Assembly (NCBI RefSeq): GCF_006094275.1
Contig: NZ_CP034412.1
Coordinates: 1,984,001-2,048,000, forward strand
DNA from: Glutamicibacter creatinolyticus
Lineage (GTDB): Bacteria; Actinomycetota; Actinomycetes; Actinomycetales; Micrococcaceae
Direction of reading: 5' to 3'
DNA length: 64,000 nt
The notes under the pieces were generated by a model. The model was not told the DNA's origin and did not search any database. It saw nothing but the letters and a program-made list of their open reading frames with translations. Both the position numbers and the translations under genes were made by a program. This document shows positions 37,912 to 45,615 of the stretch, one piece after another. The first letter of the stretch is position 1, and every line of letters starts with the position of its first letter.

Positions 37912-40900
37912 CTACACCGTCAGGCCGTGCCGGGCCCGTTGGCTCAGATCTATCCGGTGGTCGCACTCGCCGGCCAGCTGGGCGTCATGGGTAATGAGCA
38001 CCACGGTGCGACCGGCGAGCGCGGCCCGCAGCTGATCGATCAGCGCCTGTCCCTCGTCCTGGCCCAGGTGGGCGGTCGGCTCATCGAGCAGCACCACCTG
38101 CTTGTCCGCCAACAGGGCCCGGGCCACGGCCAGGCGGCAGCGCTGTCCGCCGGAGAGGCTGTGGCCGCCGCTGCCGATGCGGGTCTCCAGGCCCTGGGGG
38201 TGCTGGGCGTACCAGGATCCCAGGCCCACCGCCTGCAGCACCTGGAGCATCTGCGACTCCGGCGGCATCGGCCCCTCCACGCCCAGCGCCAGGTTGCGCG
38301 CCAGGGTTGAGTCGAACAGGTGCGCCTCCTGCGGGCACCAGGCCACCGAATCCAGGGCCTGGGCCGTCAGCGGTGAGAGCTGCCCGGCGGTGTCGATGGC
38401 GTGGATTTGCCCGGACAACGGGGGCAGCACCCCCAGCAGGGCGGTGAGCAGGGTCGATTTGCCCGAGCCGGAGGGGCCGGTCAGTGCCGTCCAGTCCCCG
38501 GGGGCGATGCGGGCGCTGAGCCCCTGGAGCACCGGTTCACCCTCACGGTAGCCAAGGGCCACCTCGTGCAGCTCAAAGCCGGTGACCGGCCCGAAATCCT
38601 CCTCCGGCTCCGGCAGCTGCTGCTGTGGTGCGCTGCTCACCCCACGGTCGGCCAGGGTCTGGCGCAGTTCGGCCAGTGCCCGGGCCTGTTGGATCGAGGC
38701 GACGCAGGCGGCGGCGGGTTCGGACAGGGCCAGGGCCAGCAGGGCGGCCACCGCGGTCAGTTCGGGCGTCACCTCGCTCAGGGCCACGCAGGCGGTGGCC
38801 AGCACGGCTCCGGTCAGGGTCATCAGGTTCGCCCCGACGCCCTGGCCCAGGGCGTGCCAGCTGGCCTTGCGGGTGTTTTCCCGCTCGGTGCGCCGCAGCC
38901 GGGCCAGCAACTCCCCCAGGGAGTCGTTGGCCCGCAGCGAGGCCCGGTTGCGCAGGATGGCCAGCACGCGTTCGTTGACCTGCAGCCGGTGCTCCAGCTG
39001 CTCGGTGGTGCTGTGCCCCTCGATGCGGCGGATCAGCGGAACAATGACAATGAGCATCAGCAGCAGCGCGCCCAGTCCCGCATACCCGAAGGCCGGCTGG
39101 ATCAGGAAGAGCACCACGGTGCCCAGCAGCCAGACGATCAGGGCCTGCAGGGGCGGGAAGACCACCCGGGCCAGCAGGTCGCGCAGTTCGTCGACCTCGG
39201 CCAGGAAGAAGCGCAGCACCACCGGGGAACGGGAGACAACGCCCCAGCTGGCGGGCTTGGCCACCATGGCGTTCCAGATCTTTTCCCGCAGCTCGGCCGC
39301 GTACCCCAGCACGGCGTCGTGGATGGCCAGCTGCTCCAGGTAGCGCAGCGCCGCCCGGCCAATGCCCAGGGCGCGCACGCTCACGATCGCCACCATCAGG
39401 TGCAGCACCGGGGGCATGTAGCTGGCCTTGACGATCAGCCAGCCGCTGACCGCGGAGAGGGCCACGGCGAAGAGCACCGACAGCACCCCCAGTAGCACGG
39501 CCTTGCGGGCCCCGGTGTAACGGGTCAGCAAATCCCGCACCGGGGTGAATCCGGACGCCTGCTGGCCGCGCGGCGGCCGGGGCGCCTGCGGCAGCGCCGC
39601 CGGTTCGTCCTCATCCACCGGGGCGGTGGTGGCCGTCGGTGCGGTGCCGGGCACCTGGCGGGCGCCCAGCAGCGGGTCGTGGCTGGCCACCAGGACCGCG
39701 CAGCCGGCAGGCAGTTCGCCCAGCAGCCGGCGTACCGCGGCCGCGTTGCGGGCATCCAGGTGGGCGGTTGGCTCATCGGCCAGCAGCAGCCGGGTGCCGG
39801 GTTCGCTGTGGATGCGCAGCAGGGCGCGCAGCACCTCAAGTCGGCGCAGTTCGCCCGGGGAGTATTCGGCGATGGGCCGCTGCAGCATCGTGTGCAGCCC
39901 CAGCTCGTGGGCCAGACGCTGGATTTGTTCGGCACTGGCCTGGGGCGCATCCAGGGCCAATTGCCGTACGCCGGTGTCCTGGCTGAATTCCGGGTGCTGG
40001 CTGATCAGCGCGAACCCGCCGCGCAGCCGCAGCTGGCCGCTGGTCTGCTCGGCGTCCAGCGCGTTGGCGCTGGCACCCTCGGCGATGGCCTTGAGCAGGG
40101 TGCTCTTCCCGGTGCCGCTGGCCCCGTCCAGCAGCAGGCGCTGGCCCGGTTCCAGGCGCAGCGTGTAGTTGCGGTAGAGCGGCGCCTCGGTGCCGTAGCG
40201 GAAGGAAAAGTCCTCCAGCTCCAGGATCGGCTGGCGGTTCCCGGCATCCAGGGGCAGCCGTTGGACGCTGATGGCCGGTTCGGGGTTCTGCCCCACCATC
40301 TGCTCGTAGCGCTGGTAGGCGGCCAGCCCGTCATCGGCGGCGTGGTAGGCCGAGCCGACCTCACGCAGGGTTCCGAAGACCTCGGGAGCCAGGATCAGCA
40401 CGATCAGCCCGGCGGCCAGGTCCATGTGGCCGCCGACCAGGCGCAGGCCGATGAACACCGCCACCACCGCAACCGAGAGCGTGGAGATCAGTTCGAGCCA
40501 GAAGCTGGAGAGGAAGACCGTCTTCAGGTTCTCCATGGTGGCCTTGCGGTAGCGTCGGCCCAACCGGGCGATCGCAGTTCCCTGGGCGCGGGCCCGCCCC
40601 AGGCCCAGCAGGGCCGGCAGCCCCAGGGCCAGCTCATACAGCTGGTGGGCCAGCGCGTCGAGTCCCGCCTGGCTTTCGCGGATCTTCTCCTGGGTGTGCA
40701 TGCCGATCAGGGCCATGAACAGCGGCACCAGCGGAATGGTGATCAGCAGCACGATGGCGCTGGTCAGATCCACGGTCAGGACATAGATCCCCAGCAGCGG
40801 CGGCAGCACCAGTGCGCTGACCATGGCCGGGATGAACTTGGTGAAGTAGTCATCGAGCTTGTCGATGCCGTGCGCCGCCAGGGTGGCGGTTACCGGCACG

Positions 40901-41235
40901 GAGAACTTCTTGGACGCCACCGGGACGATGGTGCTGACCGCTGCGGTGCTGGCCACCAGCTGTTCGCGCATTCGCTCCTTCGCGCCCAACCCCATCCGCC
41001 GGGAGGACACGTTCAGCCCCCAGCCGCCAGCGGCCCGCAGCAGCGCGCCGGCCAGGGCCAGCCACAGCAGCCGCGGGCCGGCCGGCGCACCGGAGCCGGC
41101 CAGGGAGGCGATCCAGGTGCCCAACGCGAAGGCGAGCAGGATCAGCCCCAGGGCCTTGCTGATCGACCACACGGTCAGCAACACCAGCTGCCGGCGCTGC
41201 AGCAGGTTTGAGGGCAGGAAGCGTGGTGCGGCCAT
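37912..41235 (-). CDS. cydDC: Fused thiol-reductant ABC exporter CydDC
   Basis: A 1107-residue natural fusion of CydD (about 1-550) and CydC (about 560-1107). Each half is an ABC half-transporter: six transmembrane helices, then a nucleotide-binding domain. Walker A sites are GASGTGKST (near 375) and GPSGSGKST (near 905), and Walker B sites LLLADEPTAHLD and QVVLLDEPTAHLG. The signature motif is degenerate in the first domain (SPGELRR) and canonical in the second (LSGGQRC), an asymmetry known for CydDC. It exports cysteine/glutathione or heme-related species needed for cytochrome bd assembly. Start ATG 41235 with AAGGAG 6 nt before; 30 nt after cydB. The fusion is common in Micrococcales. Confidence 0.93.
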   Translation of the reverse strand: MAAPRFLPSNLLQRRQLVLLTVWSISKALGLILLAFALGTWIASLAGSGAPAGPRLLWLALAGALLRAAGGWGLNVSSRRMGLGAKERMREQLVASTAAVSTIVPVASKKFSVPVTATLAAHGIDKLDDYFTKFIPAMVSALVLPPLLGIYVLTVDLTSAIVLLITIPLVPLFMALIGMHTQEKIRESQAGLDALAHQLYELALGLPALLGLGRARAQGTAIARLGRRYRKATMENLKTVFLSSFWLELISTLSVAVVAVFIGLRLVGGHMDLAAGLIVLILAPEVFGTLREVGSAYHAADDGLAAYQRYEQMVGQNPEPAISVQRLPLDAGNRQPILELEDFSFRYGTEAPLYRNYTLRLEPGQRLLLDGASGTGKSTLLKAIAEGASANALDAEQTSGQLRLRGGFALISQHPEFSQDTGVRQLALDAPQASAEQIQRLAHELGLHTMLQRPIAEYSPGELRRLEVLRALLRIHSEPGTRLLLADEPTAHLDARNAAAVRRLLGELPAGCAVLVASHDPLLGARQVPGTAPTATTAPVDEDEPAALPQAPRPPRGQQASGFTPVRDLLTRYTGARKAVLLGVLSVLFAVALSAVSGWLIVKASYMPPVLHLMVAIVSVRALGIGRAALRYLEQLAIHDAVLGYAAELREKIWNAMVAKPASWGVVSRSPVVLRFFLAEVDELRDLLARVVFPPLQALIVWLLGTVVLFLIQPAFGYAGLGALLLMLIVIVPLIRRIEGHSTTEQLEHRLQVNERVLAILRNRASLRANDSLGELLARLRRTERENTRKASWHALGQGVGANLMTLTGAVLATACVALSEVTPELTAVAALLALALSEPAAACVASIQQARALAELRQTLADRGVSSAPQQQLPEPEEDFGPVTGFELHEVALGYREGEPVLQGLSARIAPGDWTALTGPSGSGKSTLLTALLGVLPPLSGQIHAIDTAGQLSPLTAQALDSVAWCPQEAHLFDSTLARNLALGVEGPMPPESQMLQVLQAVGLGSWYAQHPQGLETRIGSGGHSLSGGQRCRLAVARALLADKQVVLLDEPTAHLGQDEGQALIDQLRAALAGRTVVLITHDAQLAGECDHRIDLSQRARHGLTV

Positions 41236-41265
41236 CTTCTCTCCTTGGCGTTGGGCCATCAACGG

Positions 41266-42291
<1,026 letters not shown>

Positions 42292-42309: not shown

Positions 42310-43890
42310 CTAGTAGGCGAAGGACAGCACATCATCATCGTGCTTGTCCTCGTCCTTGCGCTCGTCGTTGTTCAGTTCGGGCATGGAGGAGGCCACCCCA
42401 CCGCGGATGAACCGGGTGAGCAGCACGAGTTCGACCACCAGCAGCACTGCGTAGATCAGCGTCAGGCTGATCGTGGAGAAGAGCATCTCCCCGGCACTGA
42501 CAGTCGGCGAGACCGCGGCGGCGGTGTACATGAACACCTGGTCAATGCCGCCCATCTGCGGGTTCGGCGCCACCACGAAGGGCTGACGTCCCATTTCGGT
42601 GAAGATCCAGCCGAAGGAGTTCGCCCCGAACGGGGCGGCGATGCCCAGCAGGGCCAGCCGGGAGACCCACTTGTTGTGCGGCACGGTCCCCTTGCGGGTG
42701 AGCCACAGGGCCACCGCGGCGGCGACGGCGCTCAACCCGCCCAACGTGATCATCAGCCGGAAGCCCCAGTAGGTGACCTCCATGACCGGGACGTAGTTGA
42801 TTTCCTGGCCGGCGTACTGACCGAGGTATTCCTCATCCGGGTAGTGGGTGCCGTACTTTTCCTGGTATTCGGGGATCAGCGTGTTCACGCCCTTGACCGG
42901 GGTTTCAAAGTCGCCGTTGGCCAGGTAGGAAAGCAGACCGGGCAGTTCGAAGACCGCGGTGACGTCATCGCAGCTGGTGCTGCCCTGGGTGCGGACATCG
43001 CCCAGCGTCAGCACCGAGAACCCGGTGCCGTCGTGGCAGGCGGCCTCGGCGGCGGCCATCTTCATCGGCTGCTGCTCGAACATCAGCTGGGCCTGGGTGT
43101 GCCCCGAGAAGGCCACCCCCAGGAAGGAGACCAGCGCCACCACTGCACCGATGCGCAGCGAGGAGAGCCATACCTTGTGGTCGGTCTTGTCGCGGTTGCG
43201 GCCCTTGCTCAGGTCTTCCCCGACGATGACGCGCCCGTTGGCGTCCACCGTGTCGATGCCCTCCGCGCGGCGACGGTACAGGTGGAACCAGGAGATGCCC
43301 AGCAGGAATCCGCCGGCCACGGCGAAGGCGCCGAAGACGGTGTGCGGGAAGGTGACCAGCGCCGTGTTGTTGGTGAACACGGCCCAGGCGTCGGTCATGA
43401 CCGCGCGCCCGTCAACGATTTCGGTGCCCACCGGGTGCTGCATCCACGAGTTTGCGACGAGGATGAAGTAGGCCGAGAGGATGCTGGCCAGCGAAGCGGC
43501 CCAGATCGTGGCCAGGTGCAGCTTTGCCGGCAGTTTCTTCCAGCCAAAGATCCACAGTCCCAGGAAGGTGGATTCGACGAAGAACGCCAGCAGCGCCTCC
43601 ATGGCCAGCGGTGCCCCGAAGACGTCGCCGACGAATCGGCTGTACTCGCTCCAGGCCATGCCAAACTGGAATTCCTGCACGATACCGGTGGCCACGCCCA
43701 TGATGAAGTTGATCAGGAACAGCTTGCCCCAGAACTTCGTCATTCGCAGCCACTGTTCATTGCCGGTGCGCAGCCATACCGTTTGCAGCACCGCTACGAC
43801 CAGCCCCAGCCCGATCGTCAGCGGCACCATCAGGAAGTGGTAGACGGTGGTGATGCCAAATTGCCACCGCGCAATTTCCAACGGGTCCAT
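42310..43890 (-). CDS. cydA: Cytochrome bd quinol oxidase subunit I
   Basis: A 526-residue membrane subunit carrying hemes b558, b595 and d. The N-terminus MDPLEIARWQFGITTVYHFLMVPLTIGLG contains the conserved His ligand (His18), and GREVGRQPF-type residues occur as ITEMGRQPFVVAPNPQ after the Q-loop. The Q-loop is long (YQEKYGTHYPDEEYLG, a CydA N-type insertion of about 60 residues). ATG 43890 with GAAGGGAA upstream; the frame extends eight codons further, ignored. Two BlaI-type operators lie 28-90 bp upstream, so repression by the divergent regulator is likely. Confidence 0.95.
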   Translation of the reverse strand: MDPLEIARWQFGITTVYHFLMVPLTIGLGLVVAVLQTVWLRTGNEQWLRMTKFWGKLFLINFIMGVATGIVQEFQFGMAWSEYSRFVGDVFGAPLAMEALLAFFVESTFLGLWIFGWKKLPAKLHLATIWAASLASILSAYFILVANSWMQHPVGTEIVDGRAVMTDAWAVFTNNTALVTFPHTVFGAFAVAGGFLLGISWFHLYRRRAEGIDTVDANGRVIVGEDLSKGRNRDKTDHKVWLSSLRIGAVVALVSFLGVAFSGHTQAQLMFEQQPMKMAAAEAACHDGTGFSVLTLGDVRTQGSTSCDDVTAVFELPGLLSYLANGDFETPVKGVNTLIPEYQEKYGTHYPDEEYLGQYAGQEINYVPVMEVTYWGFRLMITLGGLSAVAAAVALWLTRKGTVPHNKWVSRLALLGIAAPFGANSFGWIFTEMGRQPFVVAPNPQMGGIDQVFMYTAAAVSPTVSAGEMLFSTISLTLIYAVLLVVELVLLTRFIRGGVASSMPELNNDERKDEDKHDDDVLSFAY

Positions 43891-43917: not shown

Positions 43918-43934
43918 TTCTACGGAACGTAGAA
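43918..43934. promoter_or_regulatory. BlaI-type operator 1 upstream of cydA
   Basis: TTCTAC-GGAAC-GTAGAA, a 6+5+6 dyad 28 bp before the cydA start. Same arms and spacing as the next two sites. Confidence 0.6.
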
Positions 43935-43962
43935 AAGTCGTTCACCACCACGATAGGCCAAT

Positions 43963-43979
43963 TTCGACAAGACGTAGAA
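43963..43979. promoter_or_regulatory. BlaI-type operator 2 upstream of cydA
   Basis: TTCGAC-AAGAC-GTAGAA, with one arm mismatch. It lies 45 bp from operator 1 centre to centre, close to four helical turns. Confidence 0.55.
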
Positions 43980-44136
43980 CTCGCGGGTAACCGGCCTGTG
44001 GCCTGCAAAACAAGCCACCGACCAAACCGCGTGATGCCAGCAACAGTCAAGCGCCAAATTTGCCGAGTTCTCAAGGTGCGCCCAAGAGACTATGCCCGAA
44101 TGTGATTTTGGCAACAATAATCTACTCAGACCCGAT

Positions 44137-44153
44137 TTTTACGAAGTGTAGAA
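44137..44153. promoter_or_regulatory. BlaI-type operator 3 upstream of the regulator gene
   Basis: TTTTAC-GAAGT-GTAGAA, with two arm mismatches, about 100 bp before the regulator start. It suggests autoregulation. The remainder of the 363-bp gap (43891-44253) holds the divergent promoters; no gene seen. Confidence 0.5.
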
Positions 44154-44253
44154 AATTTGGTCAATCCCCTATAGAATGGACTGCACGATACGTTCGTTGG
44201 CGCTTAATGGCGCCGGACGTTTTAGCACTAGTAGGCAAGTGAGGTACTGCCCT

Positions 44254-44625
44254 GTGGCCAGCCTTGGCGATCTGGAACGCTCAGTCATGGAACTTCTGTG
44301 GGACTCCGCAGAACCACTGACCGCCAATGATCTGCGCGATGAACTCGCCGCACCCGGCGATGCTGCGAAGGAACTCGCAGTCACCACTGTGCTGACGGTA
44401 CTCGCGCGGTTGGAAAAGAAGGGCCTCGTCGCCCGGGAACGCTCCACGCGTCCGCACCGCTACACGGCCTCGTCGACCCGCGAGGATCACACCGTGAACC
44501 TGCTCAACGAGGCATTGGGAACCGCCCAGGACCGCGAAGCTGTTCTGGCGCGCTTCATCGGCGGCATTTCCCCCGACGAAGCGGCGGCACTTCGTGCTAT
44601 CTTGGACGCACCGAAAACCGTCTAA
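44254..44625 (+). CDS. BlaI/MecI/CopY-family transcriptional repressor
   Basis: A 123-residue winged-helix repressor: LGDLERSVMELLWDSAEPLTANDLRDEL (helices 1-2), VTTVLTVLARLEKKGLVARER (recognition helix and wing) and a C-terminal dimerisation helix. Family members are cleaved when the BlaR1 metalloprotease senses a signal. GTG 44254 is preferred because it begins the conserved fold; the upstream ATG at 44176 would add an unconserved leader. The operator copies before cydA imply that the target is respiratory rather than beta-lactam genes. Confidence 0.85.
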   Translation: MASLGDLERSVMELLWDSAEPLTANDLRDELAAPGDAAKELAVTTVLTVLARLEKKGLVARERSTRPHRYTASSTREDHTVNLLNEALGTAQDREAVLARFIGGISPDEAAALRAILDAPKTV

Positions 44626-44649: not shown

Positions 44650-45615
44650 GTGCTTCTCACCTCATACTTTCTTGCGGCGTTGGCCATCGCATTAGCGTGG
44701 CCAACGCCGTTGGCGTTGGCCAAAGCGAAATGGCCAGCCCGCTCCCCGGTGGCCGCTGTCCTGTTGTGGCAGGCCATCGCCCTGGCCGGTGGGCTGTCAA
44801 TGATCGGCTCCATGCTCGTGTGGGGTCTGACTCCACTGGGCGATGACCTGCTCAGTGCCCTGCACCAGGGATGGCGCTTGCTGCTCGGGGACCCCGATGC
44901 CCCGTCCCCCGGGGTGGTCCACCTCTTTGCGCTCAGCGCCGCACTGCTCTTTGCCACCCATCTGGTCCTGACCCTGCTGCGCGCCGCCTGGCGGATCTCC
45001 CGGCAGAGGGCCAAGCATCGCCAGCTGCTGAGGCTGTTGACCAACCCCGCCGAGGACCGGCCCAATACCCTGGTTTTGGACCATGACGTCCCGGTTGCCT
45101 ATTGCGTTCCGGGCATGACCCGCTCGGTCACCGTCCTGTCCCGTGGCCTTCTGGACCAGCTCTCCGAGACCGAACTGCAGGCGGTGCTGGCCCACGAGCG
45201 GTCGCATCTTGAACAACGCCACGACCTGCTGATCCTGGCCTTCACCGCCTGGCACGAAGCCCTTCCCTGGCTGCCGACATCGCGCCTGGCGTTGGACGCG
45301 GTGCGCCAGCTGACCGAGATGCTGGCCGATGACACGGCCCTGCAGAAGGTGCAGCGCCCAGTCCTGTTGCGGGCCATCGTGACCGTCGCGTCCTCCGTGG
45401 CCCCCAACCCGGTCCACGATCCCGCCCAGCAGGGCGGCTCGGGCGGCGACCTGGAAACCGTGCCGAACGGAGAATTGTCCTCCGGACGCCTGCAGCGCCT
45501 GCTCAATGATCCGAACCCGCTGAGTGTTTTCCAGACCACGGCGATCGTCTTTTGCTCACTGATGCTTTTGGTCTGCCCCACCGTGTTGCTGATTGCGCCC
45601 AAGCTGCTGGGCTAG
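44650..45615 (+). CDS. M56-family (BlaR1-like) membrane metallopeptidase
   Basis: A 321-residue protein with about four transmembrane helices (5-25, 35-60, 90-110 and 285-315). The zinc-protease motif HERSH (AVLAHERSHLEQRHD) is near residue 185, with an acidic ligand probably in ADDTALQ. There is no C-terminal penicillin-binding sensor domain, so it is the short M56 type common beside BlaI repressors in actinobacteria. Predicted to inactivate the repressor encoded 24 nt upstream; the trigger is unknown. GTG start with GAGGG 6 nt before. Confidence 0.87.
   Translation: MLLTSYFLAALAIALAWPTPLALAKAKWPARSPVAAVLLWQAIALAGGLSMIGSMLVWGLTPLGDDLLSALHQGWRLLLGDPDAPSPGVVHLFALSAALLFATHLVLTLLRAAWRISRQRAKHRQLLRLLTNPAEDRPNTLVLDHDVPVAYCVPGMTRSVTVLSRGLLDQLSETELQAVLAHERSHLEQRHDLLILAFTAWHEALPWLPTSRLALDAVRQLTEMLADDTALQKVQRPVLLRAIVTVASSVAPNPVHDPAQQGGSGGDLETVPNGELSSGRLQRLLNDPNPLSVFQTTAIVFCSLMLLVCPTVLLIAPKLLG

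Follow-up and report, generated by a model that had tools for sequence, protein, structure and literature searches.

Which genes does a BlaI-family repressor control when it is encoded beside cytochrome bd oxidase, and how would its repression be lifted? This question is raised by a locus of Glutamicibacter creatinolyticus that we analyzed within a stretch of 64 kb (the window) from a genome of 3.31 Mb in a single contig. On the minus strand the window carries cydA for subunit I of cytochrome bd oxidase (42310-43890; Pfam PF01654, E 2.6e-151), whose start is more probably ATG 43890 than GTG 43914 of the ORF list, cydB for subunit II (41266-42291; PF02322, E 2.3e-93) and cydDC for a fused CydD and CydC ABC transporter (37912-41262; NCBIfam TIGR02857 and TIGR02868, both above cut-off). 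On the plus strand lie blaI (44251-44625), encoding a winged-helix repressor of the Penicillinase_R family (PF03965, 77.7 bits with a cut-off of 22.6, E 1.1e-21), and, beginning 25 nt 3' of it, the gene for an M56 (BlaR1-type) membrane metalloprotease of 321 aa (44650-45615; PF05569 39.8 bits with a cut-off of 31, PF01435 (M48) 42.8 bits). The Pfam and NCBIfam profiles bear out the gene content given in the first-pass annotation, namely cydA, CydDC and a divergent BlaI-family gene followed by an M56 protease, a repressor-protease combination known above all from penicillin resistance. In the PDB the window BlaI matches one sequence only, 2G9W, the BlaI of M. tuberculosis (E 9.6e-19), and the protein is 91% identical to BlaI of Glutamicibacter sp. 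PS; its scores are below the NCBIfam cut-offs for CopY_TcrY (28.4 vs 121.95) and BlaI_of_BCL (22.7 vs 180). The genome also holds a second BlaI-family gene (G000:C1:3120841-3121173, minus strand) whose product is 39% identical to the window BlaI.

Between cydABDC and the divergent blaI-M56 genes we found three dyads of 17 bp, given without strand and each built from 6-bp arms and a 5-bp spacer, as the first-pass annotation had claimed: O1 (TTCTACGGAACGTAGAA, 43918-43934) is nearest to cydA and has both arms perfect against TTCTAC-N5-GTAGAA, O2 (TTCGACAAGACGTAGAA, 43963-43979) is the second site 5' of cydA, and O3 (TTTTACGAAGTGTAGAA, 44137-44153) is located 5' of blaI, the latter two with one arm mismatch each. 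Its placing of two dyads close to cydA and one before the regulator was likewise correct. These are the sole matches in the 64 kb scanned when up to two mismatches are allowed, and at up to one mismatch 30 first-order Markov simulations of the window gave a mean of 0.0 dyads, a count that took in only strings starting with T or C. As ATG 43890 is the more probable start of cydA, O1 ends about 27 nt 5' of it. Between O1 and O2 the minus strand reads TATNNTG (43949-43955), a candidate -10 element for cydA whose defined bases do not vary among 10 aligned sequences and which was not among the sites listed by a promoter scan. A possible promoter of blaI-M56 (44149-44177, plus strand, 9/12 consensus matches) overlaps O3 with its first hexamer, and its second hexamer reads TANANT in all ten and TANAAT in nine of the ten aligned sequences.

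Thus O1 and O2 flank an invariant TATNNT and O3 overlaps a promoter-like -35, as seen from alignment and promoter scan, a placement around likely promoters that would suit repression. We propose a model in which the winged-helix repressor BlaI would bind the 17-bp dyads TTCTAC-N5-GTAGAA, would repress cydA from O1 and O2 at its likely promoter, and would regulate its own expression from O3 at the likely blaI-M56 promoter. An operator at the own promoter is a trait of the BlaI/MecI/CopY family, and the candidate for it here is the conserved O3 before blaI, which overlaps the promoter-like site and at which binding is predicted. It appears unlikely that BlaI is instead an activator at some of the marked promoters: a few dyads found elsewhere in the genome are far from the start codon, such as that of ctaE at -198, which would fit activation, but the overlap of O3 with a -35 and the position of O1 and O2 on both sides of a -10-like element do not. 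Known BlaI proteins are repressors. The accessible part of PMC12565901 describes BlaI in the same way.

In order to follow the dyads in relatives we used 67 BlaI loci from a protein search, with gene context for 50 of them and a recount of all 67 (two without a BlaI match at 1e-6). In 34 of the 67 loci cydA is divergent from blaI, and 33 of these 34 carry dyads, so that one of the cases named by the first-pass annotation as speaking against its idea, dyads not being conserved before cydA in relatives, was not observed. The exception is a locus of an uncultured Arachnia (L074, BlaI homologue 41% identical), where cydA is divergent and the dyad is absent, and which does not belong to the set of 33. 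Within this set (399 kb) all 84 dyads with up to one mismatch fall into the cydA-blaI gap and they carry 56 distinct spacers. Similarly, all 36 arm positions of O1-O3 (12 per dyad) are invariant in 10/10 aligned sequences and the spacers vary. One dyad each is also kept before blaI where cydA is no neighbour, in 10/10 such loci (L056 and the nine Nesterenkonia loci L057-L065). In other bacteria cyd genes are under the control of other regulators, and as binding of BlaI is predicted here, the dyads could be those of a different regulator of respiration (Rex-like or not), with blaI-M56 as a mere neighbour. The dyads that stay at blaI without cydA argue against this, and so do the sites at blaI itself, as autoregulatory sites are expected of BlaI.

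A further point against another regulator comes from BlaI itself. The dyads before blaI can be divided into TTC-type and TAC-type operators, and in 31 BlaI proteins TTC-type operators go along with L48 and E55 in 18/18 cases and TAC-type operators with M48 and A55 in 13/13 cases, where the proteins were picked for a known operator type and phylogeny confounds the association. Eight further columns separate the two types less cleanly. Residue 48 we take to lie within the helix that is expected to read DNA. With dyads kept at blaI and an operator type that goes along with the recognition helix, ownership of the dyads by a different regulator is very improbable, and BlaI remains the predicted repressor.

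Do the dyads mark more than cydA? The first-pass annotation had proposed a genome-wide scan, and by number alone its outcome was poor, with 16 dyads at up to one mismatch vs 10 matches for the reversed control pattern. As this barely exceeds the control, we used position, conservation and gene context instead, and by these the scan was informative: 14 of the 15 dyad sites examined are intergenic vs none of the eight control sites examined (of 10 found), and the sixteenth dyad site at 2908018 is intergenic as well. Outside cyd-blaI, dyads were found beside the ATP synthase operon, ctaE-qcrCAB, ABC-ABC-ctaA, ctaB, a run from DUF3099 to SURF1 opposite a short-chain dehydrogenase gene, hemE opposite hemA and a CopC/PCu(A)C copper-delivery operon, as well as beside the flavohaemoglobin gene hmp, Pyridox_ox_2 and APP1, DUF308 adjoining an FMN dehydrogenase gene, DUF6069 and the gene of a 116-aa membrane protein. 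Seven of these 13 sites thus adjoin atp, SURF1, ctaE-qcr, ABC-ctaA, ctaB, hemE/hemA or copper genes, and six have no evident respiratory target or lie within coding sequence. The site at 301024 is inside a coding sequence and was taken as a chance match. Since dyads precede these further respiratory genes, the pair is better understood as a regulator of respiratory capacity: the claim of a BlaI/BlaR1-like pair linked to cyd is supported by the dyads in 33/34 loci, by cyd linkage in six actinobacterial families and by the helix-operator association, and it was too narrow in that the dyad marks other genes of oxidative phosphorylation and of heme and copper supply.

Two of the marked genes deserve a separate remark. 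Behind one dyad of the genome runs a series of genes for an ABC ATPase, an ABC-2 permease and the heme A synthase CtaA (L022:5203-7869). In M. tuberculosis, Rv1456c is presumably a CtaA-like protein and a target of BlaI, and for this reason Rv1456c-Rv1457c-Rv1458c may be a heme A operon. Reviews instead describe these genes as an antibiotic ABC efflux system. The second is the small membrane protein of 116-118 aa, which has a dyad 9-19 nt 5' of its gene in the own genome (L023:5228-5578), in family f20 (L157:4036-4386) and in family f22 (L210:4020-4376). Its own copy shows four hydrophobic stretches, and no informative Pfam match was obtained for the three small membrane targets.

Several of these sites are conserved within the genus. 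Among 14 genomes (the own one included, dyads counted at one mismatch) the dyad is present before ctaE, the atp operon, ctaB and ABC-ctaA in 14/14 each. For ctaE and atp we made 280 mononucleotide shuffles each, and a match of this quality turned up in one of those for ctaE and in none for atp. All 17 nt of the atp site stay the same within flanks of 54-64% identity, the ctaE site is 99% identical in flanks of 78-85%, and the ctaB and ABC-ctaA dyads have spacers that vary across the genus. The hemE site is missing in 12 of the 13 other genus members and the thirteenth has a match with two mismatches only; further hemE sites were seen in Galactobacter (L133) and family f20 (L155, L161, L214). 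These targets also bear on a reading as an ordinary beta-lactam resistance circuit with the oxidase genes as bystanders, for which the family names could be quoted and also M. tuberculosis BlaI, the major repressor of blaC according to the accessible part of PMC8265638. Against it, neither a beta-lactamase nor PBP2a was found among 30 scanned proteins at or near the own-genome sites (a part of the neighbours), the M56 protein has no penicillin-binding domain and the genus-conserved targets are respiratory, so that we consider such a circuit hardly credible and keep to BlaI as a predicted repressor of respiratory genes.

Beyond the genus, perfect dyads outnumber reversed controls by 40 to 2 in six named genomes, with 18 to 0 in Nesterenkonia alkaliphila. 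In the latter, 7 of the 17 sites away from blaI adjoin hemQ, two SURF1-type genes (one of them a weak match with 25% identity), ABC-ABC-ctaA, ctaB, ctaC-ctaD and sdh, Pyridox and DUF308 neighbours recur, and eight have no evident respiratory link or are in coding sequence (L113, L114, L117, L119, L120, L123, L124, L126). From nine sites in four other genomes, seven repeat CopC (in one case with the gene 821 nt away from the dyad), Pyridox/APP1, hmp or hemA/hemE, and two are without evident target. A genome of the same family (G008) has dyads at cyd-blaI, hmp, hemQ and Pyridox, with DUF308 beside a site and a further site near an operon with ResB. DUF308 stands beside a dyad in three genera; the dyad faces it from upstream in the own genome only and follows the gene in L121 and L147. 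No evident target was seen at L134, L138, L154, L156, L162, L163, L165, L199-L202, L205 and L208.

Across 98 genomes sampled from the class we counted 39 perfect TTC dyads vs 14 reversed controls, the matches coming from 10 genomes and being concentrated in few lineages, and a BlaI match is present in 50 of the 98. We read 29 class-wide loci, of which 14, spanning six families, have blaI-M56 divergent from cydA. In family f20 a distant bd oxidase (CydA 26-30% identical) adjoins blaI-M56 (L153, L159 and L212, where CydA is 26-27% identical), with dyads in between in three of four genomes. The degenerate pattern TWCKAC-N5-GTMGWA was found within 200 nt 5' of blaI in 17 of the 29 loci and in none of 500 block shuffles; the other 12 have no site in this range, although in L170 and L176 a site lies at a greater distance or at the border of the stretch, and L171 has none (L213).

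Two genomes of the sample, G055 and G088, are mycobacterial as judged from sequence and label, G088 because its BlaI (L211, encoded between 6PGD and urease genes) matches M. tuberculosis BlaI 2G9W with E 1.9e-72, and G055 because it shares the genus label of G088. Both carry TACKAC-N5-GTMGTA 32-40 nt before cydA and also before blaI, and an atp dyad inside the 3' end of the preceding gene, 264-284 nt before the first atp gene. Against controls this pattern counts 7 vs 5 in G055, where it is hardly enriched, 5 vs 1 in G088, 4 vs 1 in G032 and 3 vs 4 in G065, where it is not enriched. Dyads reading TACGAC-N5-GTCGTA are also found before the genes of BlaI homologues from planctomycetes and further bacteria (L080-L083, L085, L086, L088). 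As the architecture thus occurs at BlaI of other phyla, it belongs to the repressor family as such and is not specific to respiration; the peculiarity of the present case is its set of target genes.

What would lift the repression? The M56 protein has its HExxH motif as HERSH at residue 182, and H182, E183 and H186 as well as the distal glutamic acid E223 are invariant in 21 sequences. No Pfam match to a penicillin-binding (beta-lactam) sensor domain was found in its 321 aa, and we therefore class it as an M56 protease of the BlaR1 type and not as BlaR1, which also makes the signal a guess. Its predicted structure has a moderate mean pLDDT of 76.8, and S. aureus BlaR1 accounts for each of its best five fold matches in the PDB, with probabilities of 0.98-1.00 but TM-scores of only 0.26-0.29 and no E-value below 0.001. 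An M56 match accompanies blaI in 29 of the 29 class-wide loci, and together with the invariant HExxH and glutamic acid this suggests a working protease partner. In N. alkaliphila (L060; L128:5568-6503) the M56 gene is several kb away from blaI, and its neighbours there are SURF1 and a fabG-like gene with a dyad. A possible, though less likely, alternative is that BlaI controls the respiratory genes but M56 is not what relieves it, so that a ligand, phosphorylation, a redox change or the like would set BlaI free: this would agree with the missing sensor domain, with the distant M56 gene of N. alkaliphila and with the kinases and WhiB4 proposed for M. tuberculosis (PMC5473688, accessible part), and it has to face the constant M56 company of blaI and the invariant catalytic residues.

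Taking the evidence together, BlaI is very probably a repressor of respiratory genes that would be relieved by an M56 protease without a beta-lactam sensor domain. From its dyads at ctaE-qcrCAB, ATP synthase, ctaB, ABC-ctaA, SURF1, the copper-delivery operon and hmp, the BlaI-M56 pair would set respiratory capacity, and the membrane-bound protease would lift repression on a membrane or respiratory cue, for which our best guess is an impaired function of the terminal oxidases (low oxygen, NO, lack of heme or copper). A further-reaching idea, which might equally well turn out right or wrong, is that BlaI with a sensorless M56 protease is an ancestral actinobacterial switch that senses the condition of the respiratory membrane and jointly controls the two terminal-oxidase branches, the assembly of heme A, copper and cytochromes, NO detoxification and ATP synthase, with mycobacterial beta-lactamase control as a derived offshoot. 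If true, the latter would explain why mycobacterial BlaR has no beta-lactam sensor.

How much of this is new? The abstract of Sala 2009 reportedly names the blaI locus, blaC-sigC, rv1456c, rv3921c and the atp operon as BlaI targets and does not name cyd. BlaI control of ATP synthase, and perhaps of cyd, is already known from M. tuberculosis, as reported in the accessible parts of two papers: BlaI binds the Rv1303 promoter of the atp operon and lowers transcription of the M. smegmatis homologue (PMC12565901), and, citing Sala 2009, it binds the promoters of cytochrome bd and ATP synthase (PMC5473688). The latter also describes mycobacterial BlaR as being without sensor domain and what it senses as unknown. 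In titles and abstract starts of the open-access literature we found no work outside mycobacteria that connects BlaI to cyd or to a respiratory regulon, and in the open-access literature we found no precedent for cyd linkage in several families, for a reach that includes bcc-aa3, heme A, copper and hmp, or for the helix-operator association. If confirmed, one repressor-protease pair would coordinate cytochrome bd, bcc-aa3, cofactor supply and ATP synthase in an actinobacterial group, the signal of the sensorless mycobacterial BlaR would become testable in relatives as a respiratory cue, and the connection reported between beta-lactams and mycobacterial energy metabolism would appear in a new light.

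In comparison with known systems, the window pair resembles staphylococcal BlaI/BlaR1 and MecI/MecR1 in combining a repressor with an M56 membrane metalloprotease whose fold matches BlaR1 (at low TM-scores), and differs from them by an M56 protein without beta-lactam sensor and by respiratory targets. With the copper repressors CopY/TcrY the window BlaI shares a Pfam family and a copper-delivery operon among the dyad-marked genes, but its CopY_TcrY score (28.4 vs 121.95), its M56 partner and its mainly respiratory targets set it apart. Closest is the M. tuberculosis pair BlaI (Rv1846c)/BlaR (Rv1845c), with the 2G9W match, a sensorless M56 partner and the ATP synthase operon as target (accessible parts of PMC12565901 and PMC5473688). 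In contrast to that system blaI of the window is physically linked to cydABDC, the dyads have TTCTAC arms vs TACKAC, further dyads are found at ctaE-qcrCAB, ctaB, ABC-ctaA and SURF1 as well as at copper and hmp genes, and no beta-lactamase was seen among the scanned neighbours of the own-genome dyads. With BlaI orthology, an adjacent sensorless M56 gene and a dyad at the atp operon (14/14 in the genus; G055 and G088), the window pair is, on present sequence evidence, best seen as a mycobacterial-type BlaI/BlaR system that would act on respiratory genes.
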